The notes under the pieces are model-generated. The model made no database searches and had not been told where the DNA came from. It saw only the letters and a list, made by a program, of their open reading frames with translations. From Treponema vincentii (GTDB lineage Bacteria > Spirochaetota > Spirochaetia > Treponematales > Treponemataceae), in contig NZ_CP050497.1 in NCBI RefSeq assembly GCF_018336815.1, positions 1-64,000 of the forward strand: DNA of 64,000 nt. Reading direction: 5' to 3'. Each line of letters begins with the position of its first letter. The first letter of the stretch is position 1. Of this stretch, positions 10,734 to 61,354 are shown in pieces. A program made the translations under genes and the position numbers.

Positions 10734-11756
10734 ATGACGTTAAAACAAAAAATCATCATACTCGGTTGTAGTATCGCCTTAATCGCAGGCGTACCTCTTT
10801 TTGCAAAACCTAAAGCGGTTTCCATTGCGGTCTTTGTACCCGGAATTGTTAAAGGGAATCCGACGTACGAATTGCTCGTAGAGGGTGTACAGGATGCAAA
10901 AGCTCAACTGGGCAAAAAGGGGAAGCCGGTTACCGTCAAGGTTGTAGAAGGCGGTGTTAATCAGGGAGAATGGCAAAACGGGTTGACGGCGCTTGCCTTA
11001 AGCAAAAAGTATGATCTCATTATCAGTTCCAATCCTTCGTTGCCGGCAATCGCGGAAAAAGTGCTGCAAGCCGCGCCCAAACAAAAATTCTTGCTGTTGG
11101 ACGGCTACCTTGCCGGAAACGCTCAAATAAAAACAGTCGGATTTAATCAGTACGAACAGGGTTACCTCAACGGTTACTACGCCGCGCTCATCAGCAGCAG
11201 TTCGATGAAGAATGCAAACGCTGCGTATAAGATCGGCCTTCTCGCCGGACAGGAATTCCCTGTTATGAACGACAAAATACGGAAAGGCTACTTGGACGGA
11301 GCAAAAGCCGTCAATAAAAACTTTGAGCTCGATTTCCGTGTCCTCGGTAATTGGTATGACGCAGCCAAAGCCTCCGAGCTTGCCGCTTCGATGATTAAAA
11401 ACAATGTGGATGTCATCTTAACAATCTGCGGCGGTGGAAATGCAGGCGTTGTGGCAGCCGCCCGGGAACACGGCGCATACGTGATGTGGTTTGACCGGCC
11501 GGGTTATTCCTACGGTAAAGACATTGTAGTCGGTTCAACGGAAATCAGCCAAAAGGCAGCCTGTACCGACTCCGTGATTGCCTTTGTGGAAGGACGTTTG
11601 GAATTCGGCACATCGGCAGAACTCGGCATAAAAGACGGCGCGGTAAACTTTGCCTTTGAAGGTGTGCCTTCCGCCGTACCGGCAGACATTACTCAAAAAG
11701 TAAAACAACTGATAGACGGCGTTAAAACCGGAGCATTGACCTTATCAGCTCACTAG
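10734..11756 (+). CDS. BMP-family (nucleoside-type) ABC transporter substrate-binding protein
   Basis: 340 residues with a type I signal peptide (GVPLFAKPKA, cleavage after AKP/AFA-like site); no lipobox cysteine, unlike TmpC/PnrA of T. pallidum. The mature part is the BMP/Med fold: AVFVPGIVKGNPTYELLVEG, GYLNGYYAALIS, VILTICGGGNAGVV and YVMWFDRPGYSYG. Family members bind purine or pyrimidine nucleosides. It is followed by its ATPase (9 bases) and two permeases, so this is the binding component of a complete importer. Start ATG has Shine-Dalgarno TAGGAG. Substrate is inferred from family only. Confidence 0.88.
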   Translation: MTLKQKIIILGCSIALIAGVPLFAKPKAVSIAVFVPGIVKGNPTYELLVEGVQDAKAQLGKKGKPVTVKVVEGGVNQGEWQNGLTALALSKKYDLIISSNPSLPAIAEKVLQAAPKQKFLLLDGYLAGNAQIKTVGFNQYEQGYLNGYYAALISSSSMKNANAAYKIGLLAGQEFPVMNDKIRKGYLDGAKAVNKNFELDFRVLGNWYDAAKASELAASMIKNNVDVILTICGGGNAGVVAAAREHGAYVMWFDRPGYSYGKDIVVGSTEISQKAACTDSVIAFVEGRLEFGTSAELGIKDGAVNFAFEGVPSAVPADITQKVKQLIDGVKTGALTLSAH

Positions 11757-11765
11757 GATGCCTTT

Positions 11766-13460
11766 GTGTTTTCGACGGAAAACTTACGCTTTACGTTTCC
11801 GGAAAACGGTATTACCGCTGTAGACGGGGTAAGCATTGAGTTTGAGGCAGGCAAGATACATGCGCTGTTAGGTGAAAACGGCGCCGGAAAATCAACGCTT
11901 GCCCGCCTCTGTACCGGTCATTTACGGCCGGACAGCGGACGCATCCTTTACAATGGTGAAGCGCTGAACTTACGTTCCGCTGCGGACGGTATCGCACGAG
12001 GACTCGTGTTGACGCCGCAGCATCCGCAGCTTTCGGCAGAGCTTACGGTATGGGAAAATCTTGCAATCGGATTACACACCGAAAAAGATATCGCCGCCAA
12101 CGTTCTTTCGCCCCAAAAAACTCAAAACGCAATTGCTGCGGCGCTCGCCCGCTACGGTATCGTGCTGCCGCTCACCCAAAAAGCGGAAACGCTCGATACG
12201 GCGCAGCTGCACTGGGCGGCAATCGGAGAAGCGCTGCTTAAAAATCCTTCCGTATTCTTTTTAGACGAACCGTCCGCCTCCTTTAGTCCGCAGGAAATTA
12301 CCCAACTGTACGGCATACTCCGCAGCTGCGCGGACAGGGGCGCGTGTATTATCGTAGTAACACACCGTATTCAAGAAGTGTTGAGCTTTATGGATACGGT
12401 GCATATTCTGCGAAACGGCAAGACTGTCCGGAACGGTTCGATCGATTCTACCGTAAATGCAAATCTCCTGCTGCAAGAAATTTTCGGTTCCGAACAGGCG
12501 GAATGGACTGCCGCCGAAATACAATCGGATATTCCGCCGCTTCAAACTGATGCCGGTACAGCCGCCGCTTCATCAAACACCAATACTCCGTCGTATACAA
12601 ATACACTGCAACCCGACACGGTATCTCCGGAACATCCGTCTGCGGCATCCCCATTCAAAGCAGAGCTACAGGGCACGCTACAATCGAGTACGGTAGCGCC
12701 TGTATCGCAGTTTCAGAATCCTTCGGTAAAACCGGCGGCGGGACTGACCGTTTCGCATGTTGCCGCCGTCAGCAGTAGAGGAGTCCGCTTTTCGGATTTT
12801 TCAATCGATGTTCCGCACGGAAAGATAACCGGCGTCGTCGGCATAAAAAAACAGGGGCTTGAGCTTTTGGAGTATTTGCTGGTCAATACGCTCAAGCCGG
12901 ACAGCGGTACTATCAGGTTTGACGGGCAGCCCCTGAGCCGCATACCGCGCGAAACTTACGCCTACATCCCCAGCAAGCGGATGAGGAACGGCATTGCCGG
13001 CAGACACAGCATTGCGGAAAACCTCTATGTCCGAGCACGCGCCTCGCTGTACCGCTTCGGTATTTATTCCCCCGTAGCGGTTGAAGCATGGAAGCGCAGC
13101 TGTTCATTCGATATTCCCCGTTCATGGAAAGATTCGGTGTTGAGCTTATCGGGCGGTATGATCCAAAAACTGATTTTCAGCCGCGAACTCGATAATCCGC
13201 CGCCGCAGTTGGTTATCTGTGCCGAACCCTATTGGGGGCTGGACAGGAAGGTACAGCTTGCGCTGTTGCAGCGGCTCCGCAATCTCGCTGAAAAGGGGGC
13301 GGCGGTTATCGTGCTCACCTCTGACGTAGACGCTGCGCTTGAAACCTGCGACCGTATTCATGTATTATACCGCGGCGTCCTGACCCGCTTTATGGAACGT
13401 TCCGCATATAACCGCGCGGAAATCATTGCGGCGATGATGCAGGCGAGTAAAGATGAATAA
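11766..13460 (+). CDS. Double-domain ABC ATPase of the BMP importer (YufO-like)
   Basis: 564 residues, GTG start preceded by TAGGATG. The first ATPase domain has Walker A GENGAGKST (36-44) and Walker B VFFLDEPSAS, but where the signature LSxGxxQR should be it reads DTAQLHWAAIGEAL, i.e. degenerate. The second domain lacks a Walker A lysine (GVVGIKKQGLELL) as is common in this family, but keeps signature LSGGMIQKL and CAEPYWGLD. Thus ATP hydrolysis probably depends on complementary sites. Between the domains is an inserted Ala/Ser/Thr/Pro-rich linker of about 65 residues (about 258-322). It overlaps the first permease gene by 8 bases. Confidence 0.88.
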   Translation: MFSTENLRFTFPENGITAVDGVSIEFEAGKIHALLGENGAGKSTLARLCTGHLRPDSGRILYNGEALNLRSAADGIARGLVLTPQHPQLSAELTVWENLAIGLHTEKDIAANVLSPQKTQNAIAAALARYGIVLPLTQKAETLDTAQLHWAAIGEALLKNPSVFFLDEPSASFSPQEITQLYGILRSCADRGACIIVVTHRIQEVLSFMDTVHILRNGKTVRNGSIDSTVNANLLLQEIFGSEQAEWTAAEIQSDIPPLQTDAGTAAASSNTNTPSYTNTLQPDTVSPEHPSAASPFKAELQGTLQSSTVAPVSQFQNPSVKPAAGLTVSHVAAVSSRGVRFSDFSIDVPHGKITGVVGIKKQGLELLEYLLVNTLKPDSGTIRFDGQPLSRIPRETYAYIPSKRMRNGIAGRHSIAENLYVRARASLYRFGIYSPVAVEAWKRSCSFDIPRSWKDSVLSLSGGMIQKLIFSRELDNPPPQLVICAEPYWGLDRKVQLALLQRLRNLAEKGAAVIVLTSDVDAALETCDRIHVLYRGVLTRFMERSAYNRAEIIAAMMQASKDE

Positions 13461-14502
13461 AGATACGCAACAACACCGTCTCAAAAAAGCAGCCCCGCTT
13501 TTAAACAGTATTATTTCGGTAACGGCAAGCGCAGCCGCGGCGGCAATCTGTTTGGCGGCGCAGAGCGAAGAACCGCTCGAAACGCTTATCGCGTTTTTTA
13601 TTTCCCCTTTTACCAACACGTTTTATTTCGGCAATATGCTTGACCAAGCCTCCCTCATTTTGCTCTGCGCGATGGGCTTTATCCTTCCGGCAAAAGCAGG
13701 CTTTTTCAACCTCGGCGGCGAGGGGCAAGCGTATCTCGCTTCGTTTATCGCGGTGGAATTCGCATTGCTGGCACCTCAGTTCCCGCAGCCCTTCGGCCTT
13801 ATCGCCGGATGTATACTCGCGGCTCTTTGCTCCGGCCTTTTAGGTTTTATTTCCGCTTTTTTGAAGCAATTTCTCGGCATTACCGAACTGATCAGCACCT
13901 ATTTATTATCGTGCGCACTGCTCCCGCTCATCGACTACGGCGTGAATGACATATTCAGGGATCCTGCAAGCAATCTGATGGCAACCCCATATACAACCGA
14001 AGCGTGGTTCTTCACTTCTTTTTGGAATCCTTCGACATTGAATAGCAGCATCTTTTTTACGGTGATCATAACGGCGCTGCTTTTCTGGATGTTCAAGCGT
14101 ACCCGCTACGGCTACGAACTCGGATTAACCGGCAATAACCGCGCTTTCGCACAATCCCAAGGAATTAAGGTCGGCTTGATTTCAGTCTTGGCGCTGACAT
14201 TCGGCGCAGCAGCCCACGGACTTGCGGGCGCATTCAGCGTATACGGCTCGCGGCACTATGTTTATGCGGGCATTACGTCGGGACTGGGTTGGAGCGGCAT
14301 CTCCGCCGCGCTTATCGGGCGCAATCATCCGTTGGGGGCGGTATTCGGAGCGCTGTTTTTTGCGTGGATGGAAGCAGGCGGCAAAGCTGCGATGCTCCAG
14401 ACAAGCACCTCCTTTGACCTTTCGTCAATTGTACAGGGGATTGCGTTTATATTGATAACGGTTGATTTTTTCCGGCAAAAACGAGGGAGAAAACCTTTAT
14501 GA
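13453..14502 (+). CDS. BMP-importer permease 1 (YufP-like)
   Basis: 349-residue permease of the branched-chain/nucleoside-type superfamily. About nine hydrophobic segments; the family motif is visible as FNLGGEGQAYLASF and as NRAFAQSQGIKVG followed by HGLAGAFSVYG and SGLGWSGISAALIGRNHPLGAVFGALFFAWMEAGG-type residues. It is larger than YufQ-type permeases, as expected for the first of the pair. Overlaps both neighbours (8 bases upstream, ATGA 4 bases downstream), so the operon is translationally coupled. Confidence 0.88.
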   Translation: MNKDTQQHRLKKAAPLLNSIISVTASAAAAAICLAAQSEEPLETLIAFFISPFTNTFYFGNMLDQASLILLCAMGFILPAKAGFFNLGGEGQAYLASFIAVEFALLAPQFPQPFGLIAGCILAALCSGLLGFISAFLKQFLGITELISTYLLSCALLPLIDYGVNDIFRDPASNLMATPYTTEAWFFTSFWNPSTLNSSIFFTVIITALLFWMFKRTRYGYELGLTGNNRAFAQSQGIKVGLISVLALTFGAAAHGLAGAFSVYGSRHYVYAGITSGLGWSGISAALIGRNHPLGAVFGALFFAWMEAGGKAAMLQTSTSFDLSSIVQGIAFILITVDFFRQKRGRKPL

Positions 14503-15353
14503 TAACCGCGATTACTTTGATTGCACAAGCCGCGCCGCTGCTGATTGCCGCCTGTGCCGCTCTCGTTTCGGAATATGCAGGGCTGTTGAACGTCGGAATA
14601 GAAGGACTGATGCTTTTAAGCGCCTTTACGGGAATCGGCGGCATCCTGCTAACCGAAAGCCTCGGCGGTCTTATTCCGGGGCTTGCCGTCTCGCTTGCGT
14701 TGGGTGCAGGGTTGAGTATGTTTATTACCTATCTTGCTATCTATCGTAAGGCAAATATCTACATAGTCGGACTTGCGGTAAACTTAACCGCTGCAGGCTT
14801 TGTTTCCATACTGAGCACACGGTTTTTCGGTAACCGGAGTATCGTTGCGCTGCCGCCGGAGCTGCTGCTTCAGCCGCAGCTCGTCAAAACGGCGAGCGCG
14901 GCGCTCGCCGTTTTGACCGGCCTCGGACTTGCGCTCTTTTGCCGCTACACCAAAACAGGCTTGCGGATAAAGATACTCGGAAAAGATTCTGCATTTTTGG
15001 ATTCGATTGGGGTGCATACCGCACGGTTAAAGATAGCGGCAATGGGTATGTCCGGGGCGGCGGCGGCGTTGGCAGGCTGCCTGTTATCCCTCCAGCTGGG
15101 AGCCTTTGTTCCAAACCAAAGCGCCGGCAAGGGGTGGATTGCACTCGTGCTTGCGTATGCAGGCGGACGCTCCGTTATCGGAACAATCTGTGCCGCGCTG
15201 CTGTTCGTCTATCTTGAAAATACCATCGCGGCGGCACAGATCGGTATGGAACATCCGGCACTCTTGATTGGGCTGCCTTTCGTGCTCGGCCTCTTCCTGA
15301 TTATCGCCGAAAAGCTGATTATCCGAATATGGAAGCGGTATAGAGGGAAATGA
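14499..15353 (+). CDS. BMP-importer permease 2 (YufQ-like)
   Basis: 284 residues. N-terminal AAPLLIAACAALVSEYAGLLNVGIEGLML is the hallmark of YufQ-type permeases, followed by about eight membrane helices and a short basic C-terminus (RIWKRYRGK). Starts inside the stop of the preceding gene (ATGA overlap). Last gene of the operon; the convergent jetA stop lies 31 bases downstream. Confidence 0.9.
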   Translation: MITAITLIAQAAPLLIAACAALVSEYAGLLNVGIEGLMLLSAFTGIGGILLTESLGGLIPGLAVSLALGAGLSMFITYLAIYRKANIYIVGLAVNLTAAGFVSILSTRFFGNRSIVALPPELLLQPQLVKTASAALAVLTGLGLALFCRYTKTGLRIKILGKDSAFLDSIGVHTARLKIAAMGMSGAAAALAGCLLSLQLGAFVPNQSAGKGWIALVLAYAGGRSVIGTICAALLFVYLENTIAAAQIGMEHPALLIGLPFVLGLFLIIAEKLIIRIWKRYRGK

Positions 15354-15383: not shown

Positions 15384-16922
15384 CTACCCGAATATAATCT
15401 TAGGCACTGTCAGCGCTACGGACTGGCCGTTGTATGTGTATGTAATCCGCTCGGTTGCATCATCAAGGATAACGGCGGCGGGTTTGAGTTTCGGCGCAAG
15501 GGCAAAATAGGCGGCGACTTCGGAAAGACCTTTTTCTATCGGGAATTTTTCGCTCAAATCGTGCAGCGAAAATTGAAGGGCGCCATGGAGAAATTGACTG
15601 CGATACTGTTCAATATGTTTTTTGAGCAAGGCTTCATCAATATAAAATTGATTAAAAATACCGCTTCGCTGCAGCAGCGCTGCCGACTCTTGCTCGGTGA
15701 ATGATACGATCGGTTCAAAGCTTTGGTTAAGCGGCGGAAGGATAAGCGTCCGTGCCTGCGGGAAATGCAGTACCGCTTTTGTTTGAATACCAAACTCTTT
15801 CGGAAAAACAATATCACGCTCGGCTAGTTCAAAGGCTTTCGTCTTGATAAAAGCAATAAGTTCGGTCAGCTGCTTGTGATCACCGCAGTCACGCGAAAGC
15901 AGCACACGGTTGAGCCGGTGCGTCAGCGAATGGTTGGTGTCGATAATCTTCCGCCCCGCTTCATGCAGATATTGCTTGAGGTGCAGCAGGAAAGAATCCT
16001 CCCATGCAATGCCATGCTCGGTTACCTGTGCGATAATCGTCCGGGTTAAGTGATTGATCTCGTTTTTACCGGCATCGGCTGCAAGAAAGTCCCAAAAAGA
16101 ATCGAAGGTTTGCCCCTGCGGAGTTTCCTTCATTTCCAAATTGGCATCAAGGGCGTAGCCAAGCACCGCGCCTTTTGTTTCGCTCACCGACTGTTTTTTG
16201 TATACATCAGCAAGAATGCTTTTAAAATTTTCTTCTACCTGCCGGAAATCCGATAAGAGTTCGCGTGCCGCTTTTGAAACTTCACGTAACCGTTCGACCA
16301 TTTGCACCGGCGTATACACTTCCGCCTCTCCGGTTGTTTTAATTGCATCTATACGTTGCTGCAATGCTTCTTTCTGTTTTTCAAGTTCTGCAATTTGTGT
16401 TTGAGGATCGTGCGTAGTGTTTTCCGAAAGCTCTCTGAGCTTATGCAGAATATCTTGAAAGCGGGATTCGGTACCGATAAACGTTTTTGAATCCATCGTA
16501 TCAAGCCAGGTAAACAGCCGTTCCACTCCCGCGCTCAGTTCGATAATCACATCCTGCCGCTCATTATAGTATTTTTTGATATAACCGGCCTTTTCCGAAC
16601 ACCATTTATTTGCTAAAAAATGAGCGCGCGCCTCGATGCTTTGCATTGCAAGTTTGAACTCTTCGCTGTTTTGTATTTCTGCTGTTTCTCCGCCATACCA
16701 ATCGTCGATACTGCTATTGTCAAAACCGGAAAATTCCTGCGACCGCAAAAAATCCGCCAGCAGCGTTTCAAACCGATCGGCATTGACGGTTTGCAGATTC
16801 CGCTCTCTGAATATTTTAAAAAGAAACGAAATAACCGGTGCGGGATTCTTTGAACGTAAAAGCCGCAATCCCGAATCTTCCGCAATTAAGGTTGCTATAT
16901 ATGCACTGTCAGAGCTTTGCAT
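15384..16922 (-). CDS. jetA: Wadjet component JetA (DUF3375, kleisin-like)
   Basis: About 512 residues. The family pattern of DUF3375/JetA is clear: N-terminal AEDSGLRLLRSKNPAPVISFLFKIF, a WCSEKAGYIKKYY segment, FTWLDTMDSKTFIGTESRF, the dimer-helix region DPQTQIAELEKQKEALQQRIDAI, and ARELLSDFRQVEENFKSILADVYK. JetA is the kleisin that bridges the JetC ATPase heads in the Wadjet anti-plasmid condensin. The ATG at 16922 is chosen because AAGGA lies six bases before it; an ATG at 16928 has no spacing to that site. The start lies inside the 3' end of jetD. Normally jetA is first in the operon; here it is last. Confidence 0.88.
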   Translation of the reverse strand: MQSSDSAYIATLIAEDSGLRLLRSKNPAPVISFLFKIFRERNLQTVNADRFETLLADFLRSQEFSGFDNSSIDDWYGGETAEIQNSEEFKLAMQSIEARAHFLANKWCSEKAGYIKKYYNERQDVIIELSAGVERLFTWLDTMDSKTFIGTESRFQDILHKLRELSENTTHDPQTQIAELEKQKEALQQRIDAIKTTGEAEVYTPVQMVERLREVSKAARELLSDFRQVEENFKSILADVYKKQSVSETKGAVLGYALDANLEMKETPQGQTFDSFWDFLAADAGKNEINHLTRTIIAQVTEHGIAWEDSFLLHLKQYLHEAGRKIIDTNHSLTHRLNRVLLSRDCGDHKQLTELIAFIKTKAFELAERDIVFPKEFGIQTKAVLHFPQARTLILPPLNQSFEPIVSFTEQESAALLQRSGIFNQFYIDEALLKKHIEQYRSQFLHGALQFSLHDLSEKFPIEKGLSEVAAYFALAPKLKPAAVILDDATERITYTYNGQSVALTVPKIIFG

Positions 16923-18186
16923 AATCATTCCTTATCGTTATAAGCGATGAGAGTCCTTCTTTGATAAAATCCTGCGGGATCCGTTCTTGCTCAAGTCTGC
17001 TGCACTCAGGGTGTTCCCGTAAATAACGGAAAAGCGCTAATTCTTCGGCGGTGAGGTGTAGATCGGCGCTATCTCGCTTAGAGGATTTTCCGGGAACGGC
17101 AAACTGTGAAAATGTTTGGTATGTTGTGCTGTCCATGCAAAACGAAATAACGCCTGGAAAGACTGCGCGGAATTCCGACAGGATTTCAAATCCGTGTTCG
17201 TCTATATCGCCGAAGTAATAGAGCTTCTTTTGCCGTAAATGTTTATTGCGCTGTAATTGCACGGCGGCAAATCCCGACCCGAAAATACAAATGCTGTTAG
17301 GAACGGCGGGAAATGTCAAATACACCAGCAGATTTTCAACAACAAAAACAGTATCGACGGAATCAAAGCGAATCGCCGCAAACGATTCAAGCGGTATCTG
17401 CACCTCGCCGCTTTGGAGCATTTCTCCCGCAATAGTTACACCGATTGCATCATCCAGTAAACGGAAGCGGACAAACGGCGGCGCAGTGTGGACTCCCCAT
17501 TCGGCATATACGGCTGCCGCGGTATTTTTCGGTTCGTCAAAAACCGGTTCCGGAAGAATCGCTTCAGTCAAAACCGGTTCCGCAGTACCGCTTTTCTTTA
17601 ACGCGCAATAGAGTGAGAAAATCAGCGCGCGGTTTTGTTCGATAAATTTGGTGTGCACCGGAAGCGGAATTTCGCGCAGGTATAATCCGCACGGGCTGTG
17701 ATGTATAAACCAATCCGCACACAAAAAAAGCTGCTCCCAATACTGTGCGTCAAAGGACTCGGTTAAAACGGAGCTATGCTTGGCCGTCCAGTCATACCAA
17801 ATATCAGCGGCATCGAGCTTGAGGCATTGCGTTTTAATACGTTCAAGATTTGCTTTGAAATTGCAGGCTTCCGTTTCCTTTTGAATAAAGCGCAAAAAAT
17901 CAGCTTCGGTTTCGAATAGTATTTTTTCGATAACGGTCTGCATGCCCTTGCTGCGAGTTTTAACGGCGGCGCTCACCACTGTGTAGCCGAATCCCTTTGC
18001 CTGCTTTGAATGGCGGTACAGCTTTTCCGCTTCCGTTTTCCGCATCGCAAAATCATCCGTTGCGGAACCTCGTGCGGCCGGAATATGCAGCGGAAAAAAA
18101 GCGCTGTCTCCGTTAAGTACGGAATGCAAATAACTGAGAAATTTATGCTCGGCTTTTTTTCTGATCGCTTCAACACTTATCATACT
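16909..18186 (-). CDS. jetD: Wadjet component JetD (DUF3322/DUF2220, TOPRIM nuclease)
   Basis: About 425 residues from the ATG at 18186, which has AAAGGA before it; the frame is open to 18210 but without a ribosome site. The N-terminal DUF3322 half (EAIRKKAEHKFLSYL, LYRHSKQAKGFGYTVV, ADIWYDWTAKHSSVL) precedes the C-terminal TOPRIM-like DUF2220 half, with the catalytic Glu in VFVVENLLVYLTFP and the DxD in YYFGDIDEHGFEIL. JetD is the subunit that cleaves DNA looped by JetABC. It lies in the same transcript as jetC (upstream) and jetA (20-base overlap downstream, 14 from the chosen jetA start). A palindrome covers its ribosome-binding site. Confidence 0.88.
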   Translation of the reverse strand, partial: SMISVEAIRKKAEHKFLSYLHSVLNGDSAFFPLHIPAARGSATDDFAMRKTEAEKLYRHSKQAKGFGYTVVSAAVKTRSKGMQTVIEKILFETEADFLRFIQKETEACNFKANLERIKTQCLKLDAADIWYDWTAKHSSVLTESFDAQYWEQLFLCADWFIHHSPCGLYLREIPLPVHTKFIEQNRALIFSLYCALKKSGTAEPVLTEAILPEPVFDEPKNTAAAVYAEWGVHTAPPFVRFRLLDDAIGVTIAGEMLQSGEVQIPLESFAAIRFDSVDTVFVVENLLVYLTFPAVPNSICIFGSGFAAVQLQRNKHLRQKKLYYFGDIDEHGFEILSEFRAVFPGVISFCMDSTTYQTFSQFAVPGKSSKRDSADLHLTAEELALFRYLREHPECSRLEQERIPQDFIKEGLSSLITIRNDYAKL

Positions 18187-18189
18187 GTC

Positions 18190-18314
18190 CTTTGAAAATA
18201 TACGGCGCATCTACTGCGTCATACGCTGAAAATAAATGCTCAACGTATCAAAGATACGCCTCCGCTTTATTTTCAGCTATCTCCTTGTATCTACACCGTC
18301 TATTTTCAAAGGCG
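18190..18314. repeat. Nested palindrome over the jetD ribosome-binding site
   Basis: Outer arms CTTTGAAAATATACGG (18190-18205) and its near complement ending at 18312 pair at about 18 of 21 positions. Middle arms GCTGAAAATAAA (18225-18236) and TTTATTTTCAGC (18266-18277) are perfect. Inner arms CGTATC/GATACG (18244-18258) enclose AAA. In the jetD mRNA the outer arm includes part of the Shine-Dalgarno AAAGGA. Architecture resembles the palindromes at 21.8 and 25.9 kb but the core sequence differs. The rest of 18187-18400 holds no gene. Confidence 0.65.
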
Positions 18315-18400
18315 GTGATTCTATTTAATGCAAGTATCATCACAAACGTATCAGCAATACTATCTGATGCATTTACCTCATACCGTGAAAATAATACCCC

Positions 18401-21400
18401 TTACAATATACCGCTTGTAGTTACTCTTTCCTTTTCTTTTTGATATCGGTCAATCGTGATATTCAGTAGGCGCGAGGTATTATCGTTATGCTTTTCGGTA
18501 ATGTGAACCGATGCGATATAATCTTCTACGATGTTGATTTTATCCATCGGTGTTACAAGAATCATCTGGAGTCCGATCTCTTTAAACAGCTCCATTGCAT
18601 AGCACGAATTATCCATATCGATTTTGCTGAATACCTCATCGATGATCACCAGCCGTAACGAATATCCCTCTCCACCGGTAATGCCGAATTGAAATGCAAT
18701 TGCCGATGCTAAAATCGTATAGGTTAATTTTGATTTTTCTCCGCCCGACAAACTTGCAGAATCTTCGTAATATTGTTTTTGCGTATTATCGTTGAGATAA
18801 TATTCAATAGCGGCAAAATTAAACCACTGGCGCACGTCCAGCACTTTTTTACGGCGCGGATCATTTTCTTTTAAGTAGGCAATCAGCGTTTCAATTTTTT
18901 TATACTCTTCAAATTCCGAACCGGATGTGCGGTTAAAAATGGAGGCGGAGTCAGGCAATGCAGCTAACAACAGAGCCTGAAAATCTTTTATGGACTGATC
19001 GGTTGTTTTGCGGTTTTCCAGCTTGATATACGTCGGAGGATTTTTGCTGTAGGGAATTGTTTTTAAGCTTTTATTCAATTCCTCTATTCCGACAATAATC
19101 TGCTGACGTCCGGTATCAAGTATGGTCTTAAAATTGGTAATATCGTTTTTTACGTGCTCATTAAAAATAAGCTTAAATTTTTTCCGGCACGAAGGTAAAT
19201 CATCGCGATTCACTCGATCGTAAAAGGCTTGAAAGTCTGCAAGCCCCGATACTTCCGCTTGGAAGTCCCGTACATCGGCCTCCCATGACGGAAACTTCCG
19301 CTTTATATCCGGCTTAGGGTTTTTCACTGCGGACATTTTTTCGCGGACTTTCCGCTCCGCATTTCTGACAGCTGTTTCCGCCTGTTCGCTCTCTTTATTC
19401 AATGCCGATTCAATCCGATCCCGTTCGGTATCAACGGCTTCAGGCTGTTCAAAAGTTTTTTGTACACTGAAATGCTCTGTAAAAATAGCGAGCGCTCTTT
19501 GCATTTCTTCACTTTCTCTATCGGCATACTGATGCAGCTGAGCGGTAAATCGTTCCTGTTTGATGCGGATATCCGTCAGCTGCTGTTCCGCTTTTGAGGC
19601 TGCTGTAATAGCACCGGTACGCGCTTCTTCTTTTGTTTGCTTTTCAATTTGCAAACTTTGCAATTTATTTTCAAGCTGCCGCAATTCTTTGTCTCCGCGG
19701 AGAATAGCTTCCTTTTCTTCAAGAGACGCATTCAATGCAGCCGAATATTTTTGCACATCAAGATCATCCCAGAATTGCATCTTTTCCAAACTGCTCAAGA
19801 TAGCAAGCTGACCGGTTATATCATCTTGTTTTTTCTTGCTGTCTTCCAGCGCGGTATCGTTTTTCGCAATTTCGTTTTGCAGTTTTTTCAAGCTGAACGA
19901 AAGTTCCTGCCGCTTTTGAATATTATCCCATCCGAGTACAAAGGTTTGCCGTCCCGAATGCTGCGGACGATCGTCTTTTTCGTGACGTATTTTTGCCTTA
20001 ATTAAACCTGTTGAGGTAAGCGCCTTGGCCGCCCTACTAAATGCTTCCGTATCATCCGTACAGATATAATCGAACGTATCATGCAAATATGCTTCAAGCC
20101 AATCGGAAAGTTCATGCTTCCGCTGTATTTCCAATTTCGCAATAAGTGAATTTTTTTCGGGTATGTTCTTTTTCAGCTGCGGTTTGGTATCGGTTTTAAG
20201 ATAGACGAGCCGTCCCCGTAAATTATGTGTTGCCGCATACGTATTCACTTTTGTATAGAGGTGAGGAGGCACCAGCAGACATAACGCAAAGTTATGCAGC
20301 AGTTTTTCTATCGCAGCTTCCCATCGGCTTTCTTCTTTTGCAACCTGCAATAGCTCTCCGGCAAACACCAGTTCTTTTTCCGAGCAGCCGATATGTGCGC
20401 ATATTTGATCCCGTATATCGATATTATGCGCAGGGATATTTGTCGTCCGTTTATTGAGTGATGCCAATTCTTCGATTATCATTTGCTGTTCTTTTTTATA
20501 TGCTTGATTTTGCGTATTCCGTTCAAGGCTTGATTCGTAAAGGTCATCTTTTTCTTTACTGAGTTTTTCTTTCAATTTCGGTAGCAATGCTGCATTCGCA
20601 TTAAATTTCTTTTCCGTTTGCGGAATTTCCAAAGATAAAACACGGGCGCACTGTTCATAGTCCCGCACATTATTCCGGCATGTCTGCAACCGTAATTCAT
20701 TGAATTGAATCTTATGCTCAATTTCTTTGATCAGAATTGCCGTGCTGTTTTTTTGAATAACTGCTTTGAGCGAATCCATATCGGCATCAAGCTGTTTTAT
20801 TTCAGCTTCAAGCATATTTCTTTTATTATCAGCAAGCAACTTTTCTTGCTGCAAAACAACTATTCGTTTTGTAATCGTATTTAGGACTGTTTGTATATAC
20901 CACAGCTGTAAAATCATTTTGAACTGTTTTAATGTTCTGTTCTTTTGCTCGCAGTCTTCAAATATTTTTCCGGCATCTAAAATTTCCTGCAGCAGCCTCA
21001 GCTGTTCTTGCGCTTTTTCTATCTCGTTGTATATCTGAGAAAGCTCTTCGTAATGCTTTACCAAATCATCAAAATCGCGTTCGGTATCGCGGCCTTCAAA
21101 CATATAGGTTCTAATAAAGTCATTTAAGTTGCCGACTCCTTTCAGTCCAACCGTTTGGGAAAAAAGATAGAGCGCCCGATCCGAACGCAAGCCTGCAAGC
21201 TGAGAGAATGCTTCTGCATACGGGGCAAAATTATCGACGTAAAATTTGGTTCCGAATACTTCGGTCATGCGTTTTTTCCAATTGCTCTGCGGTGTAAAAT
21301 CAATCCCTGCTTTTTGTATCTCTTCAATTGAAAGCCGCGTATGCGTTATCGAATAGATTTTTTGCAAGGCTCCGCCGCCGGAAAAGAAGCGCACCTGCAT

Positions 21401-21805
21401 AAGCGTTATCGGCCCCTGATCATCTCCCAACACAAAGCAGCCGAGCAAAATAGAAATACAGTTTTCTTTTGTGCGTAAATTCTTCGCGGTGCCGGAGGTA
21501 AATTCTTCCTCGCGTTTGCTCCCGTATGTACCTAGTACATAGCTGATTTCATCGCGTTCCCGTTTACTCTCCGCTCCGGCGGATTGGTTATAAAAACGCT
21601 GCCGCGGCGGCACGATAAGCGACAAAAAAGCATCCACCAGCGTCGTCTTCCCGGAACCGTTTAAGCCGGTCAACAGCGTCGCCTTCTTTCCACACCGCAT
21701 CGTATACACCTTGGAATCAAAAACGCCCCAGTTGTACACTTGAAAAAAATCAAGATACACACCGTTCTTATCAATATCTTCGGTTTTTAATAAATCGAAT
21801 TGCAT
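18401..21805 (-). CDS. jetC: Wadjet component JetC (MukB/SbcC-like SMC ATPase)
   Basis: About 1,134 residues. Near the N-terminus Walker A reads GLNGSGKTT in LLTGLNGSGKTTLVDAFLSL-type context. Two long coiled-coil arms (about 230-450 and 640-830) flank a hinge-like centre, and the C-terminal head has ABC signature SLSGGEKSKL and Walker B LVIIDEVFSKID. JetC is the motor of the Wadjet condensin. The ATG at 21805 is preferred over 21838 because TTAGGAG precedes it; the extra 11 residues of the long form are encoded by the arm of palindrome B. It is followed by jetD after 215 bases. Confidence 0.9.
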   Translation of the reverse strand: MQFDLLKTEDIDKNGVYLDFFQVYNWGVFDSKVYTMRCGKKATLLTGLNGSGKTTLVDAFLSLIVPPRQRFYNQSAGAESKRERDEISYVLGTYGSKREEEFTSGTAKNLRTKENCISILLGCFVLGDDQGPITLMQVRFFSGGGALQKIYSITHTRLSIEEIQKAGIDFTPQSNWKKRMTEVFGTKFYVDNFAPYAEAFSQLAGLRSDRALYLFSQTVGLKGVGNLNDFIRTYMFEGRDTERDFDDLVKHYEELSQIYNEIEKAQEQLRLLQEILDAGKIFEDCEQKNRTLKQFKMILQLWYIQTVLNTITKRIVVLQQEKLLADNKRNMLEAEIKQLDADMDSLKAVIQKNSTAILIKEIEHKIQFNELRLQTCRNNVRDYEQCARVLSLEIPQTEKKFNANAALLPKLKEKLSKEKDDLYESSLERNTQNQAYKKEQQMIIEELASLNKRTTNIPAHNIDIRDQICAHIGCSEKELVFAGELLQVAKEESRWEAAIEKLLHNFALCLLVPPHLYTKVNTYAATHNLRGRLVYLKTDTKPQLKKNIPEKNSLIAKLEIQRKHELSDWLEAYLHDTFDYICTDDTEAFSRAAKALTSTGLIKAKIRHEKDDRPQHSGRQTFVLGWDNIQKRQELSFSLKKLQNEIAKNDTALEDSKKKQDDITGQLAILSSLEKMQFWDDLDVQKYSAALNASLEEKEAILRGDKELRQLENKLQSLQIEKQTKEEARTGAITAASKAEQQLTDIRIKQERFTAQLHQYADRESEEMQRALAIFTEHFSVQKTFEQPEAVDTERDRIESALNKESEQAETAVRNAERKVREKMSAVKNPKPDIKRKFPSWEADVRDFQAEVSGLADFQAFYDRVNRDDLPSCRKKFKLIFNEHVKNDITNFKTILDTGRQQIIVGIEELNKSLKTIPYSKNPPTYIKLENRKTTDQSIKDFQALLLAALPDSASIFNRTSGSEFEEYKKIETLIAYLKENDPRRKKVLDVRQWFNFAAIEYYLNDNTQKQYYEDSASLSGGEKSKLTYTILASAIAFQFGITGGEGYSLRLVIIDEVFSKIDMDNSCYAMELFKEIGLQMILVTPMDKINIVEDYIASVHITEKHNDNTSRLLNITIDRYQKEKERVTTSGIL

Positions 21806-21818
21806 TAGCCGTTCTCCT

Positions 21819-21961
21819 AAGGTAAACGCATCAGCCATTTTGGAGTATATTCCCGCAAAATGAGAGGCTGTACCACCAGAGTTTCGCCGCTTTGCGGCTC
21901 AAATGGTGTTCCAACCTCTTATTTTGCGATATGTGGTCTGGGTGGCTGATGTGTTTACCTT
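21819..21961. repeat. Nested palindrome B (family with CCAGAG...CAAATGGT core)
   Basis: Outer arms AAGGTAAACGCATCAGCCA (21819-21837) and TGGCTGATGTGTTTACCTT (21943-21961) match at 18 of 19. Middle arms CGCAAAATGAGAGG (21854-21867) and CCTCTTATTTTGCG (21915-21928) match at 13 of 14. The core 21872-21909 runs from ACCACCAGAG through GCCGC/GCGGC to CAAATGGTGT. It lies between fic and jetC and reaches to 14 bases before the jetC ATG. Confidence 0.9.
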
Positions 21962-22021
21962 GCTTGTTTTGAAAAAAAATAGGCCGTTCCGTAAACATTA
22001 ACTATTACCCTATTATTATCC

Positions 22022-23008
22022 TTAGTTATTCTCTTCAATATGCCAGTAGCCGTTTTTGTCAGCGCCGACACGGGTGATAATATGTTGTTCTTGCAGTTTT
22101 TTCATGTTCTTAATAATATTCAACCGGGCAATGCCGACAACTGCTGCAAGCTCTTCTTGTGTGATGTAGGGATTATCCTTTATTGCCTGTATGATTTTTT
22201 GCTGATTTACAGTAATCTTTTGAGTAATCTTTACAGTAATCTTTGATTCAGTTTTAAGGATAGCTTCAATAGTATCTAAAATCACCGACAGCATAAACTC
22301 AATGAACGCCGTACTATCGGAATTGGCATCGCTTAATCCTAAGGCTTGATAATAGTCATTTTGGTGCTCTTTGATCAAGGTTTCAATAGGCAGCCATGCA
22401 AAAAAAGGTTTCCAGTCTTTCAAGATTACAGTTTGCCATAATCGTCCCATTCGGCCGTTACCGTCTTCAAAAGGATGGATAAATTCAAACTCATAATGAA
22501 ATACACTGCTCTTAATGAGCGGATGCGCGTCGGTATCTTTCAGCCATTGGAATAAATCGCCCATCAAAAACGGAACCCGGTCGGCAGGGGGCGCTACGTG
22601 AACGACATTTTTGCCGTCAAAAATGCTAACCCCGTCTCTTCTATACTTACCGCTGCGGTTCACCAGCTCATGCATCATCAAGCGGTGTGCATGCAGTAAA
22701 TCTTGTTCTTTATATGGATTGAGCGTTAAAAGCAGTTCATACGCTTGCACGGCGTTTTTTACTTCTTGTATCTCATTCGGAGAACCGAGTACTCGTTTTC
22801 CCTCAATAATTGCGGTAATCTGTTCGATAGTTAATGAATTATTTTCAATCGCCAGCGAAGAATGAATCGTTTGAATGCGGTTCTTTTTCCTTAACTGCAC
22901 ACTGTGCTCGGTATTTTCAAAATGCTGTATCTCTCCGATTTTTTCGGATATTTCGGAAATCAGGTTTATCGCTTTTGACGTAATCTTAAATGGTGGTTCG
23001 TATTGCAT
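22022..23008 (-). CDS. Fic-domain protein with winged-helix C-terminus
   Basis: 328 residues. The complete Fic motif HPFEDGNGRMGR is at 178-189, so AMP transfer (or another nucleotidyl modification) to a protein hydroxyl is expected. An inhibitory motif of the S/TxxxEN type, SLAIEN (51-56), precedes it, the class II arrangement of self-inhibited Fic proteins. After about 260 comes a winged-helix segment (ITVNQQKIIQAIKDN, TQEELAAVVGIARLNIIKNMKKL) suggesting DNA binding or autoregulation. It starts 7 bases after the HEPN gene and precedes jetC, i.e. is embedded in the defence island. Target unknown. Confidence 0.9.
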   Translation of the reverse strand: MQYEPPFKITSKAINLISEISEKIGEIQHFENTEHSVQLRKKNRIQTIHSSLAIENNSLTIEQITAIIEGKRVLGSPNEIQEVKNAVQAYELLLTLNPYKEQDLLHAHRLMMHELVNRSGKYRRDGVSIFDGKNVVHVAPPADRVPFLMGDLFQWLKDTDAHPLIKSSVFHYEFEFIHPFEDGNGRMGRLWQTVILKDWKPFFAWLPIETLIKEHQNDYYQALGLSDANSDSTAFIEFMLSVILDTIEAILKTESKITVKITQKITVNQQKIIQAIKDNPYITQEELAAVVGIARLNIIKNMKKLQEQHIITRVGADKNGYWHIEENN

Positions 23009-23015
23009 CGGTGTC

Positions 23016-23429
23016 TTATTCTATCTCATAACCGGCTAATACAATTTGTTCTTTGCACCATGTTATAACGGTTTCCATATCAGCGAGCGCTTTTCTTGTA
23101 AGTGCTTCGTCAAAGTCGGGAGATTGCGGGTACCGAAAAGTTGCCACATATTTTGTTAAACTGATGGCGGAAATTTTTATCGTATCAGGAAACACTATCT
23201 CCGTTTGTATCATTTTAATCAACATTCCCAAATCGTGGATTTTAACGATTTCAATTTCCTTTAATACAAATAAAGCTTTAATTGCTTTTTCAGCAGCTTG
23301 CTGACAATGGAAACAAATAATTTCCAGAGGCTTTGGATGCATGGTTTCAAAAAGATGGTGCGCCGTATTTTGATCCATTTCAACAAAGCGCAGCCATTCT
23401 TTTATTGTACCTTCAAGCTCCTTTTTCAT
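23016..23429 (-). CDS. HEPN-domain protein paired with MNT nucleotidyltransferase
   Basis: 137-residue HEPN protein (PF05168-like): EWLRFVEMDQNTAHHLFE, FHCQQAAEKAIKALFVL, KIHDLGMLIKMI and the FRYPQSPDFDEA segment near residue 100. The RNase motif RX4-6H of toxic HEPN proteins is not seen, so toxicity is not assured. The start overlaps the stop of the nucleotidyltransferase gene by 17 bases; such HEPN-MNT pairs are classical toxin-antitoxin or signalling modules. Confidence 0.85.
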   Translation of the reverse strand: MKKELEGTIKEWLRFVEMDQNTAHHLFETMHPKPLEIICFHCQQAAEKAIKALFVLKEIEIVKIHDLGMLIKMIQTEIVFPDTIKISAISLTKYVATFRYPQSPDFDEALTRKALADMETVITWCKEQIVLAGYEIE

Positions 23430-23739
23430 ATAACACTACCCCCTCTTTTGCAACCGTTTTTTCCAGCGTCGGATAGAGCTTTCGTTTTTCAAAATGCTCT
23501 TTATAATTTACGATAACATCGCACGGCTTTGCCTGAATATCAAAAATTGCAAAATAAGCTTTATCGCATAAAAGTAACGGTGTTTCGCTTTCTTCCCGTT
23601 CATCTACCACAACATAAAAATCATAGTCGCTCGTTTCGGTTTCTTGATTGCGTGCGTAGGAGCCGAACAAATAAATCCGTTCCGGGTCAAGCGCTTCTCT
23701 AATTTTTTCGGCTATTTGCCGGATCTCTTCAGTTATCAT
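23413..23739 (-). CDS. Minimal nucleotidyltransferase (MNT antitoxin type)
   Basis: 108 residues. The polymerase-beta core motif GSX10DXD is intact: GSYARNQETETSDYD near residue 27, preceded by IYLF, and a third acidic residue position in ...KPCDVIVN. MNT proteins adenylylate their HEPN partner. Overlapping arrangement with the HEPN gene and the first position of the minus-strand run (mnt-hepn-fic-jetC-jetD-jetA) make it the probable lead gene. It is divergent from jetB, with 189 bases between them. Confidence 0.88.
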   Translation of the reverse strand: MITEEIRQIAEKIREALDPERIYLFGSYARNQETETSDYDFYVVVDEREESETPLLLCDKAYFAIFDIQAKPCDVIVNYKEHFEKRKLYPTLEKTVAKEGVVLYEKGA

Positions 23740-23848
23740 TAGTATGTTATTATACCAAATTTTTGACGATTCCGCTACCTTGCGCTTTTAATGTTTTGTT
23801 CTGCTTCAGTTCAAAAGCTGCTACTGTATACTATTATGTCCCGTTCTT

Positions 23849-23904
23849 TTGTTGTGGGTTTTTAATAGTCAATCTTTCAGAAATAGGATATACTGACCGT
23901 TAAA
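23849..23904. repeat. Direct repeat, left copy, flanking jetB (uninterrupted)
   Basis: TTTTAATAGT followed directly by CAATCTTTCAGAAATAGGAT and ATACTGACCGTTAAA. The same sequence recurs at 24587-24682, where a palindrome interrupts it. The copy lies upstream of jetB. Confidence 0.8.
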
Positions 23905-23928
23905 AAAGGAGCAGTCATAGGAGGCTGA

Positions 23929-24513
23929 ATGATGACGGCACAGTGGGCGGCAGTCTGTATAAAATTGTTACAAGGGGCTATTTACGAAAATGAGGAACCT
24001 GAGGCATGGAAGCTCTTGCAGCAATACCAGCGTGAAATTGCCGCATATTTTGACCAAATCGGTATCAGCCTCTTTATTGAACCGGCCGACGGCTACGCAT
24101 TTTTAGAGCAAAAAGAGAGCGAAGAAGGGGATTCTAAATCTGTTAAGCTTATCCGGCATTATCCGCTGTCATTTGAGTTATCATTGCTGTGTGTACTGTT
24201 GAGGGAGGCCTTGGAGCAGTTCGATGTTTCTCAAAATACATCTTCAATTTTAGTACTTAAAGCGAGTGAAATCCGTGGAATGCTTTCCATCTATTTTAAA
24301 GAAAAAACCGATCAAACAAAACTCTATAAAGAATTAAATAGGTATTTAAATCAAGCTGTCGATATAGGCTTTCTTAAAAACTTGAGCGAAAAAGACCTCA
24401 GCAAAACAGGTGATGCAGATATTGACCCTGCGTATGAAGTCCGCAGAATAATACGGGCAAAAGTCAGTGTCGATTTTTTAGCGGAATTTAAAGAGCGGCT
24501 GCAAAAGCTTTAG
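23929..24513 (+). CDS. jetB: Wadjet component JetB (DUF4194, MukE-like), displaced
   Basis: 194 residues matching the DUF4194/JetB pattern: ADGYAFLEQ, then LIRHYPLSFELSLLCVLLREALEQFD, EIRGMLSIYFKEKTDQTKLYKELNRYLNQAVDIGFLK (by its parts) and YEVRRIIRAKVSVDFLAEFKERL. JetB binds the JetA kleisin as the winged-helix MukE-like subunit. ATG with strong AGGAGG seven bases upstream; the second ATG (23932) is equally possible. It is on the opposite strand from jetC, jetD and jetA and separated from them by mnt-hepn-fic, and is flanked by direct repeats. Usual order is jetA-jetB-jetC-jetD on one strand. Confidence 0.85.
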   Translation: MMTAQWAAVCIKLLQGAIYENEEPEAWKLLQQYQREIAAYFDQIGISLFIEPADGYAFLEQKESEEGDSKSVKLIRHYPLSFELSLLCVLLREALEQFDVSQNTSSILVLKASEIRGMLSIYFKEKTDQTKLYKELNRYLNQAVDIGFLKNLSEKDLSKTGDADIDPAYEVRRIIRAKVSVDFLAEFKERLQKL

Positions 24514-24586: not shown

Positions 24587-24682
24587 TCGTGAGTTTTAAT
24601 AGTTGGGCAGCTCTAACAGCTCGGTTAGATTTTTAGAGCTACCCAGTTAATCTTTCAGAAATAGGATACGCAGACCTTTAAA
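24587..24682. repeat. Direct repeat, right copy, interrupted by a palindrome
   Basis: GTGAGTTTTAATAGT (ending 24603) and TAATCTTTCAGAAATAGGAT (from 24648) correspond to contiguous sequence in the left copy at about 23856-23890. Between them sits the 41-bp palindrome. The galK stop codon is inside the repeat (24678-24680). Confidence 0.8.
24604..24644. mobile_element. 41-bp palindromic miniature insertion
   Basis: Arms TGGGCAGCTCTAA and TTAGAGCTACCC(A) with an inner TAAC/GTTA stem. It is flanked by AGT on both sides (24601-24603 and 24645-24647), which would be a 3-bp target duplication. The left repeat copy at 23.87 kb is the same sequence without it. Related palindromes are at 8241 and 31066. 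Confidence 0.65.
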
Positions 24683-33649: not shown

Positions 33650-34426
33650 TTATTTATGATGCCCGATAAACTTATCTCCATTAAAATGAATCATATGTGT
33701 CGGGTTATCTGCAATCCATGCTTCTGTTTCCCATGCAATTTCTTGTGCGTAGTGTATAAATGTTTTCTTATCCGGAAATGCTGAGATATACACTTTATCC
33801 GCAATCACATTTGCAAATAGATTTTCAAGTTCAATGTATCGCTTGCTGTCAACTGGTCCGTGCGATGTTACAGATTCAACAAGTATCAACCATCTTTTAT
33901 CTTCAATATATAAGATTACATCCGGCATTTTTCCATGCTGCTGCACATTAAATAAAAGATTGCCTGCAAGTTCTTGGTCGTAATATCCCCACTTTTCTCC
34001 GGTATCACCGACATAAATAAGCGTACTATTCGGTAAAAATCGCGGAGCCATCTGCTCAATTATATCTCGTATTAATTCGCTATGTTTACCGGGAGAAATT
34101 TGAATACTATGATTTTCTTTGATTTTTACGGAAACCATATTCATTTTCCGTTCATGTGCATATTGAGCAGAAAGAGTTGATTTCTTTTTTATAAAATCTG
34201 CAAGTAATGAATCATACAGATGTGTTTTATATGCTTTAATAACTTTGAGAGCTTCGGGGGAAATCTGATAAACAGCATTTGGACTGTTCACCGGGCGAGC
34301 AGGTTTGTCTGGGTTATACAGCACAATTCCAGCCTGTACCATCTGGTGCGTACTAAATCTTCGGAAGGTTTCACGAGTGTTTGGTGCATATTCCTTGTTG
34401 TAGTAGTCTTTCGCAAAAGTCATCAT
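33650..34426 (-). pseudogene. BsuBI/PstI-type restriction endonuclease, main (C-terminal) part
   Basis: 258 codons in one frame. The PstI/BsuBI pattern is clear: KEYAPNTRETFRRFSTHQMVQAGIV (by its parts), then the catalytic core with YVGDTGEKWGYYDQELA, KMPDVILYIEDKRWLILVESVTSHGPVDSKR and the IAWETEAWIADNP tail. The enzyme would cut CTGCAG if it is a true PstI relative. The N-terminus lies in another frame (34427-34607); removing one A from an A6 run (34469-34474) joins them into one protein of about 318 residues. No start codon with a ribosome site is seen for this part alone. Confidence 0.85.
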
Positions 34427-34607
34427 CGGTGTAATTCCAACAAGCGGACTTTCTGCATTTTCCCATTCTTTTTTCAGGAGTAACGTTTAAAAGCGAAAGC
34501 AAACAATAAGCTGTCCGCTCATTTTGTTGGGCTGATGGCATACCAAATTTTTTAAGAATATCTATAGCTTCGTCAAGTTTCAGTTTTATTTGTTCTTCGA
34601 TTTTCAT
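34371..34607 (-). pseudogene. N-terminal fragment of the same endonuclease, frameshifted
   Basis: Starts ATG 34607, overlapping the methyltransferase stop by four bases, and encodes KLDEAIDILKKFGMPSAQQNERTAYCLLSLLNVTPEK, the normal start of BsuBI/PstI enzymes. After PEK the frame is lost at the A6 run and continues with unrelated residues to a stop at 34371. With one A fewer, the sequence continues EWENAESPLVGITPMMTFAKDYY, directly into the downstream part. Either a slippage (phase-off) state or a sequencing error. Confidence 0.85.
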
Positions 34608-36076
34608 TTTGTTACAACCTGCAAAAGTTTATCAAAAAGTTTTTGATTCCATTCCTTATGAGTTCTTAAACCTTTTCCCAGTTTTTCTAGATCAGCGCTA
34701 TTTGGATAGGGAAGATTGCGTAAATCTGTTGCATTAACTTGTGTATGACCGCTAAACAGGCGGAATTTCTCATCAATGTAGGTTGAATTAAGCCAGCAAA
34801 CTAAACCATAAGCGACATTTTCTGGAAGAGATGTTTTATTTATATGGAAAACATTCAAGTGATTTTCAAAAGCGATACCGTTTTTTATAAAATCATCTGG
34901 AGTTATAATCGAAGCAACAACTCGTTTTTTTTCTTCCTTTGTAGAAAAACGTTTCACAAGAACATAAAAACCTTTGGAGAAAAGTTGTTTTTTCACATTT
35001 TCTGATTCAAAAATTGCATTCGGCTTTTTTGATTTCTGAGGCCATGCAAGACGATGATTTTTTAAATGAACAGAATACACAAGCGGGCTAGAATTTTCCG
35101 TGTAATCTTTAAGCAAAAGATTTTTCATTCTAAAGTCAACAATAGGCCCTGTTGAAACTTTTATACCGAGGTTGTTAATACTTGAGTAATCCGTCAGATT
35201 TCTATTTTCAACCTTCTGTTTTATAGGAATATGAAAATATTTTTCATCGTCATTTTTATGTAAAATATGAGAGAAAGGAACTTCTAATGCAGATAAACCT
35301 ATAAAAGTATCATCGTTGCAATAGGAAATTTTTACATTTCCTTGTTCAGCATTCTTTTGTAACATAATTATTATATTTTCTTGCAAAACAGATTCATCTT
35401 TAAATGCCTTATCACGGGATTCAAAAAGATGAATGTATTTAATAGCACAATTTTTTAAAATAAATTCTCTGAATGTTTTGTAATAAACTCCGTTACAAAA
35501 ACTTCTCGGAACGATCGCAACGATATAGCCGCTATCTTCTGTAAGTGAAATTGCAGCACCCATAAACGCTGAATATAAATTTACTGTTTCAAGACCAAAT
35601 GCACGAGCAGACTGTCGTTCTTTTGAATTTGTCTGAATTTTTTTATATGGAGGATTCATTATCACATGCGTATATGTCTCATTGATTTTCCATGTATATT
35701 CAAATGAGGTTTTTTCTAAAAAATCTTCCGAAAAGATTCTGTAATCCGATTTTTTTAAAGCTGAACTCGATAAGGCTATATTTTCATTTAAAGCAGGATA
35801 AATATTTTTATCAATATCATAAGCCGAAATGTGAATGCCGGGGGTATTCCAATTTTCTTTTGCAATTCGTTCCATAAAAGAACATGAAAGTATTCCTATA
35901 CCTGCCCCGGGGTCAAGCAATTTGATTTTTTTATCAGTAACAGGGAATAAAGATGACATAAAATGGGCTATTTTATACGGAGTAAAATACTGTCCAAATT
36001 CTTCCTTATGATTTAAGGATGTTTTAATGGCGTGAACCTTTCGCTCTTTTTCAAGTATGTCTGCAACTGCTACCAT
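34604..36076 (-). CDS. Adenine-specific DNA methyltransferase of the BsuBI/PstI system
   Basis: About 490 residues. The gamma-type N6-adenine methyltransferase motifs are present: FGQYFTPYKIAHFMSSLF (motif X), LLDPGAGIGILSCSF (SAM-binding motif I) and the catalytic NPPYKKI (motif IV), followed by a long target-recognition region. ATG 36076 (MVAVADILEKERKVHAIK) is chosen because the longer frame to 36151 has no ribosome site and encodes part of the intergenic repeat. Overlap with the endonuclease gene is the standard arrangement of this type II system. Low GC relative to the suf genes, consistent with horizontal acquisition. Confidence 0.88.
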   Translation of the reverse strand: MVAVADILEKERKVHAIKTSLNHKEEFGQYFTPYKIAHFMSSLFPVTDKKIKLLDPGAGIGILSCSFMERIAKENWNTPGIHISAYDIDKNIYPALNENIALSSSALKKSDYRIFSEDFLEKTSFEYTWKINETYTHVIMNPPYKKIQTNSKERQSARAFGLETVNLYSAFMGAAISLTEDSGYIVAIVPRSFCNGVYYKTFREFILKNCAIKYIHLFESRDKAFKDESVLQENIIIMLQKNAEQGNVKISYCNDDTFIGLSALEVPFSHILHKNDDEKYFHIPIKQKVENRNLTDYSSINNLGIKVSTGPIVDFRMKNLLLKDYTENSSPLVYSVHLKNHRLAWPQKSKKPNAIFESENVKKQLFSKGFYVLVKRFSTKEEKKRVVASIITPDDFIKNGIAFENHLNVFHINKTSLPENVAYGLVCWLNSTYIDEKFRLFSGHTQVNATDLRNLPYPNSADLEKLGKGLRTHKEWNQKLFDKLLQVVTK

Positions 36077-36160: not shown

Positions 36161-36285
36161 GACCTATTCTGAAACTTTCGTTTTCGAATAGGTCGACGAG
36201 TTCTCGCATCGCACCGGAGTTTCGCCGTGTTGCGTCTCAAATGGTCGTCCAACCTCACTTATTCTGCGACTTTTACCTATTTCCG
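36161..36285. repeat. Nested palindrome D, half replaced by a second repeat
   Basis: The right half has the family core CCGGAGTTTCGCC...CAAATGGTC (36213-36248) and right middle arm CCTCACTTATTCTGCG (36254-36269); the matching left middle arm is missing. In its place lies a 51-bp sequence (36161-36211) with its own hairpin GACCTATT...AATAGGTC; 48 of 51 bases recur at 59172-59222. The right edge overlaps the last codons of sufD. Confidence 0.75.
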
Positions 36286-39958: not shown

Positions 39959-40035
39959 AGAGGTACAAGAATGTATATTTTTGACGAGGTGGTTGCAATC
40001 GGCTTTAATACCCTTTATTACGACGTAGAGCGTTC

Positions 40036-40128: not shown

Positions 40129-40253
40129 AGAGGACGGCGGGTATGAAACCCTCCGCACGAATAAAAGAATGTGAGAACAAATATTGATACATGAGTGAAC
40201 TCAAAGCATTTGTAAAATCGCTTACAATACCTTTTTGTGATAGAACAATCATC

Positions 40254-61210: not shown

Positions 61211-61354
61211 GTGCAGATGCATCAGGAAGTGTGGATCAAGTAACGCAGAATACGTGAGGCAGAGCAACCATTTGAGCCGCAAAGCGGCGAAACTCTGGTT
61301 GAACGGACTCACGTATTCTGCGGCATAGCTAAAAAGCACCTGATGCGTCTGCAC
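61211..61354. repeat. Nested palindrome E (same family as B, inverted)
   Basis: Outer arms GTGCAGATGCATCAGG (61211-61226) and CCTGATGCGTCTGCAC (61339-61354), 15 of 16. Middle arms CGCAGAATACGTGAG (61244-61258) and its exact complement (61308-61322). Core CAACCATTTG...CTCTGGTTG (61265-61299), i.e. the family core on the minus strand. The right arm contains the last codons and stop of the phosphotransferase gene. Confidence 0.9.

Follow-up and report, generated by a model that had tools for sequence, protein, structure and literature searches.

A type I Wadjet locus of Treponema vincentii with jetB on the opposite strand and fic, mnt and hepn genes inside the cluster

Genes of the cluster and identity of the Jet proteins

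The window analysed here comprises positions 1 to 64,000 of contig NZ_CP050497.1 of Treponema vincentii (GCF_018336815.1), referred to as our own genome; other genomes are given G-numbers and loci L-numbers. A gene cluster, flanked by a permease gene on one side and galK on the other, is composed of the following parts:

15384–16928, minus strand: jetA, kleisin (DUF3375), 514 aa, final gene of the minus-strand unit
16909–18210, minus strand: jetD, Toprim nuclease, 433 aa counted from the first ATG, with VEN at residue 291 and GDID at 334
18401–21838, minus strand: jetC, SMC-like ATPase, 1145 aa, with Walker A, LSGGE and Walker B
21839–22021: gap between fic and jetC, holding a dispersed repeat
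22022–23008, minus strand: fic, 328 aa, with HPFEDGNGRMGR, an N-terminal inhibitory-type motif SLAIEN and a C-terminal winged helix
23016–23429, minus strand: hepn (PF05168), 137 aa, without Rx4-6H and with RYPQSPD
23413–23739, minus strand: mnt, minimal nucleotidyltransferase, 108 aa
23740–23928: divergent intergenic region between mnt and jetB
23929–24513, plus strand: jetB, KITE (DUF4194), 194 aa, sole plus-strand gene of the cluster

A sequence-only reading of this DNA had proposed a complete Wadjet system. This is borne out by family matches, the PADLOC type I models and the JetB fold: all four families of type I Wadjet (JetABCD; MksBEFG/EptABCD) are encoded together. The SMC ATPase motifs of JetC and the Toprim acidic residues of JetD, taken as the essential ones, are present according to motif check and alignments, and the solved JetB, JetC and JetD/MksG structures are matched by our own proteins. 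The 194-aa protein matches DUF4194, as had been suggested, and its predicted structure (made for JetB only) agrees with the JetB fold; a protein search at E 0.001 revealed no second jetB in our own genome. The system-level function is thus most likely that of Wadjet, with a putative activity deduced from these sequences.

The usual Wadjet layout is A-B-C-D on one strand, which is no requirement for the complex. Our locus departs from it: jetB lies on the opposite strand, jetC, jetD and jetA remain together, and fic, mnt and hepn are located inside the cluster.

Gene order and conservation of Wadjet loci

JetC and JetB are present in three of the seven genomes of the genus, namely our own, G001 and G004. 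As the sequence-only reading had called for, the treponemes were surveyed for the same gene order, which recurs with identical strands in G001 (L008). The G004 locus (L009) shows jetB, fic, jetC, jetD and jetA in the same orientation as ours, with jetC in two frames, and mnt-hepn was not found there. JetA, JetB and JetC share 94–99% identity between our genome and G004, JetD 83%. In G005, permease and galK are separated by about 1.1 kb containing a glutathione peroxidase gene, and no jet genes were found in the stretches surrounding galK of G006 and a diverged galK match of G003 (70% over part).

JetC was furthermore searched in the family (274 genomes, 25 matches with E not above 1e-60; 35 of 245 at E 0.001), in the phylum (392 genomes, 30 matches) and in a collection of named species, from which 80 loci were kept of at least 366 relatives; G148, G197, G315, G436 and one piece of G084 are left out of this survey. 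A first contig scan with a single protein query revealed no relative. After four duplicates were dropped, the matches listed comprise 133 distinct jetC loci, 98 of which contain all four genes according to our own profiles. The order in these 98 listed loci is nearly invariant: 91 are ABCD and three display the layout of our genus, while one locus each shows BCDA on one strand (L030 in G037), ABCD with jetD reversed (L026), ABCD followed by a further C-D piece (L028), and BACD (L051). In the latter, the frames overlap and run off the edge of a contig, and its true order is most likely ABCD. The splitting off of jetB, previously described as unusual, occurs in three of seven genus genomes and in none of the 95 other four-jet loci among the matches listed. 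It is a real and rare rearrangement of a known system, common to three species: in this lineage the order has changed, and none of the four genes has been given up.

The other 35 listed loci are distributed over C-D only (15), A-B-C (11), B-C-D (4), C only (4) and A-C-D-C (1). Immediately ahead of jetC, ten of the 15 C-D loci carry a pair of ORFs on the same strand whose lengths fit JetB and JetA; PADLOC identified the pair as JetA (DUF5716) followed by JetB in all four loci to which it was applied, which indicates A-B-C-D order there. Three further C-D loci lie where the sequence ends near jetC. In the two related loci L022 and L023, toxin-antitoxin DNA is inserted after jetC and followed by jetD, the insert being a Phd/YefM-ParE pair in L023 and the same antitoxin gene in L022. 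Neither jetA nor jetB was recognised on the whole L022 contig (12.4 kb) or on the L023 plus L168 contig (26.2 kb), and both loci may be examples of another type of Wadjet that is split or incomplete.

Two side observations concern this survey. Beside the Wadjet operon of L028 that another jetC-jetD piece follows lies a 1374-aa ORF (10877–14998), which presumably resembles Cas12a, and plasmid NZ_AP025289.1 of Treponema saccharophilum carries a short piece of the JetC C-terminus (67% identity over 12% of the query).

Passages of the Wadjet literature describe operons with four genes (PMC12287153), a three-type scheme together with the loop-extrusion model (PMC10586767), and a jetC frame break by which PADLOC overlooks a Wadjet (PMC9252829). 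Judged by title and abstract start, no description of the present layout was found among the matches listed from the open-access literature on Wadjet, in agreement with the sequence-only reading.

Among the loci examined, G037 provides the nearest relative outside the genus for all four Jets (JetA 72%, JetD 52%, JetB pieces 68–69%, JetC pieces 57–82% identity). Its genes jetB-jetC-jetD-jetA (L030) lie on one strand, jetB and jetC are broken, and no fic, hepn or mnt was recognised at the locus. Since all four Jets share this nearest outside relative among the loci examined, jetB came with the others, and its capture from a separate source was rejected. The simplest reading of the sequences is a permutation followed by displacement of jetB: in an ancestor common with G037, jetA would have shifted to the end (B-C-D-A), and in the genus lineage jetB would then have moved to the opposite strand with fic in between, a direction of rearrangement for which a single outgroup locus, its own genes partly broken, is the basis. 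Thereby fic would have ended up ahead of jetC-jetD-jetA, preceded by the mnt-hepn pair in two of the three species.

It is conceivable that the system no longer mattered after jetB had been displaced and that its genes drift. The split jetC of G004 and the broken jetB and jetC of G037 are in line with such a decay and indicate that the system has not stayed intact in every genome, and an insertion of 240 bp lies at our own jetC-jetD junction. On the other hand, all four jet genes are open in both our genome and G001, and their dN/dS ratios between the two (Nei-Gojobori) are low: 0.042 for jetB, 0.10 for jetC, 0.18 for jetA and 0.18 for jetD. The jetB value is the lowest and amounts to 0.020 against G004. 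We therefore regard decay as improbable. By the same method, the ratios of the embedded genes are 0.054 (fic), 0.25 (hepn) and 0.35 (mnt). Synonymous divergence from G001 is uneven along the locus (dS 0.06 in jetA, 0.57 in jetD), a sign of recombination. A lineage in which jetB is the most constrained Jet offers a way to find out if JetA, JetB and JetC need to be synthesised in a coupled manner.

Fic and MNT-HEPN genes within the cluster

Class II Fic proteins carry HPFx[DE]GNGRxxR and, N-terminal to it, an inhibitory (S/T)xxxE(G/N) motif. Our Fic reveals both and shares with SoFic and class II Fics the HPFxDGNGR core, the N-terminal inhibitory-type motif and a C-terminal winged helix. The nearest solved chain is 4rgl (E 1e-94), and PADLOC reports a SoFic match (E 7e-50). 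In contrast, the score of 68.9 bits lies far under the NCBIfam SoFic equivalog cut-off of 550, so that we consider it a related Fic and do not file it as SoFic. PMC12249575, which presents a three-class Fic scheme, describes Sofic as an AMPylase that acts against phages, is toxic and is under the control of its C-terminal domain; by analogy, a back-up defence role of the related Fic found here would fit this description.

Fic is 92% identical between our genome and G001 and 57–58% identical to that of G004, with a near-identical stretch at residues 151–175. The remaining Fic matches in the seven genus genomes are at most 36% identical; hence the G004 allele was most likely acquired from outside the genus, and a copy of a resident paralog is ruled out.

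The mnt-hepn pair is a variable part of the island. Against G001, the first half of mnt is 96–100% identical and the second half 44–52%, and identity of hepn drops to 36% in one middle block. The pair resembles MntA-HepT (type VII toxin-antitoxin) in its two overlapping genes, MNT then HEPN. It differs in that its HEPN belongs to PF05168 (HEPN-T) and shows RYPQSPD instead of Rx4-6H, and in that its MntA model score (37.8 bits) is below the cut-off of 60. According to PMC3710099, several HEPN-T proteins have D instead of H, whose part may be taken by a different conserved H; our HEPN has H65 among other H residues. The G001 hepn gene (L008 7092–7619) contains an in-frame insertion of about 37 residues, parts of which match window positions 39987–40033 and 40139–40167.

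Of the embedded genes, fic keeps its position in all three loci, and mnt-hepn is present in two of them. As the G004 locus starts with fic alone, the view of MNT-HEPN as integral to the system, taken from the sequence-only reading, is not supported.

The recurrence of Fic near Wadjet was studied in 1,324 kb of flanking DNA from the 130 listed loci that do not belong to the genus. A motif search identified nine Fic genes of at least 150 aa in nine loci. Four of them precede the operon in the same orientation at a distance of no more than 600 bp, against an expectation of 0.23 (Poisson P ~9e-5): L025 (3 bp), L027 (6 bp), L071 (overlapping a long jetA frame) and L099 (584 bp). L025 and L027 form one lineage with JetC 95% identical, which reduces the count to three events (P ~0.001; 0.011 without the strand factor), and as the 600-bp window was set after the loci had been seen and the Fic count is small, the enrichment serves as a lead only. 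The other five Fics lie 1–6 kb from Wadjet (L064, L076, L083, L093, L115).

There is about an even chance that fic and mnt-hepn are independent toxin-like cargo of a defence island, which arrived by chance beside an already rearranged Wadjet. Along this line, the G004 locus does without mnt-hepn, Fic was replaced between species while the Jets stayed similar, jetC and jetD of L023 are separated by a toxin-antitoxin pair, and the more distant Fics are scattered around other Wadjet loci. The preserved position of Fic in spite of allele replacement and its placement directly upstream in four of nine cases argue against mere chance, and speak for some link of Fic to Wadjet, as far as positions can tell; the sensing, regulating or guarding role considered in the sequence-only reading would be one candidate.

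A closer tie would make Fic a fifth Wadjet gene, either a winged-helix repressor of the unit or an AMP-transferring guard when Wadjet fails. Fic precedes the jets in about four lineages, our genus counted, and active and inhibitory-type motifs occur in all seven Fics checked. A helix-turn-helix scores above the Pfam cut-off in our own, G004 and L025 Fics; its position differs, being N-terminal in L025, none was detected in L071 Fic, and that of L099 is below the cut-off. Moreover, Fics are only about 26–31% alike across lineages (26–30% between ours and those of L025, L027, L071 and L099), and 121 of the 130 other Wadjet loci have no Fic of at least 150 aa in the flanks examined. We thus consider this closer tie unlikely. 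More speculative still, and rather doubtful, is a scenario in which Fics were recruited about four times as an upstream fifth gene for control or guard, and in which, with jetB of this genus on the opposite strand, the plasmid-cutting complex would need two promoters for its assembly, both adjustable by a single regulator. The interest of this locus lies in what Fic may do, and its recurrence ahead of the operon makes it a tangible candidate for controlling or backing up Wadjet.

Candidate control region, proposed mode of action and inserted DNA

The divergent mnt-jetB region, previously proposed as a shared control point, heads both units, and both of its ends are conserved in the three species. 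A -10-like TATAAT (minus strand, 23754–23749) and a -10-like TATACT (plus strand, 23889–23894) recur in G001 and G004 in an alignment inspected by eye, and AGGAGG precedes jetB; promoter-like sites are about as numerous in this region as expected by chance (19 sites, shuffle mean 16.9). The sequence upstream of jetB is kept in all three genomes, and fic of G004 starts at the position of the mnt start elsewhere. Gaps of 183 bp (fic-jetC) and 190 bp (jetC-jetD) with inserted DNA lie within the minus-strand unit and, like the number of promoter-like sites, count against the reading that follows.

Taken as a whole, we think it probable that the cluster encodes a working type I Wadjet which underwent two rearrangements and whose Fic is transcribed with the jets without being a subunit. 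JetA, JetB and JetC would extrude DNA loops, and after the end of extrusion JetD would cut DNA circles of small size. With its gene displaced to the opposite strand, JetB would therefore be made from its own predicted promoter, back to back with that of the other unit. Fic would be an AMP-transferase resembling a toxin, autoinhibited through an N-terminal helix and equipped with a DNA-binding tail, acting as a back-up defence gene or an autoregulator.

Several repeats and insertions mark the region. The dispersed repeat within the fic-jetC gap (21839–22021) has 29 genome matches, itself included, and two of the others lie in the window (36212–36269 and 61267–61323). Where jetC meets jetD, the inserted DNA of about 240 bp (18188–18427), absent from G001 and G004, has inverted arms (18189–18214 and 18287–18312); jetC ends inside it, and the start annotated for jetD lies there as well. 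A 38-bp repeat, 87% identical, brackets jetB (23867–23904 and 24645–24682), and its 20-bp core has exact matches nowhere else in the genome. Since its copies are direct and the second sits in a stretch missing from G001 and G004, inversion of jetB via flanking inverted repeats is not supported. Further along the window, positions 34001–36000 show a GC content of 33%, compared to 39–49% in adjacent blocks, and perhaps represent acquired DNA.
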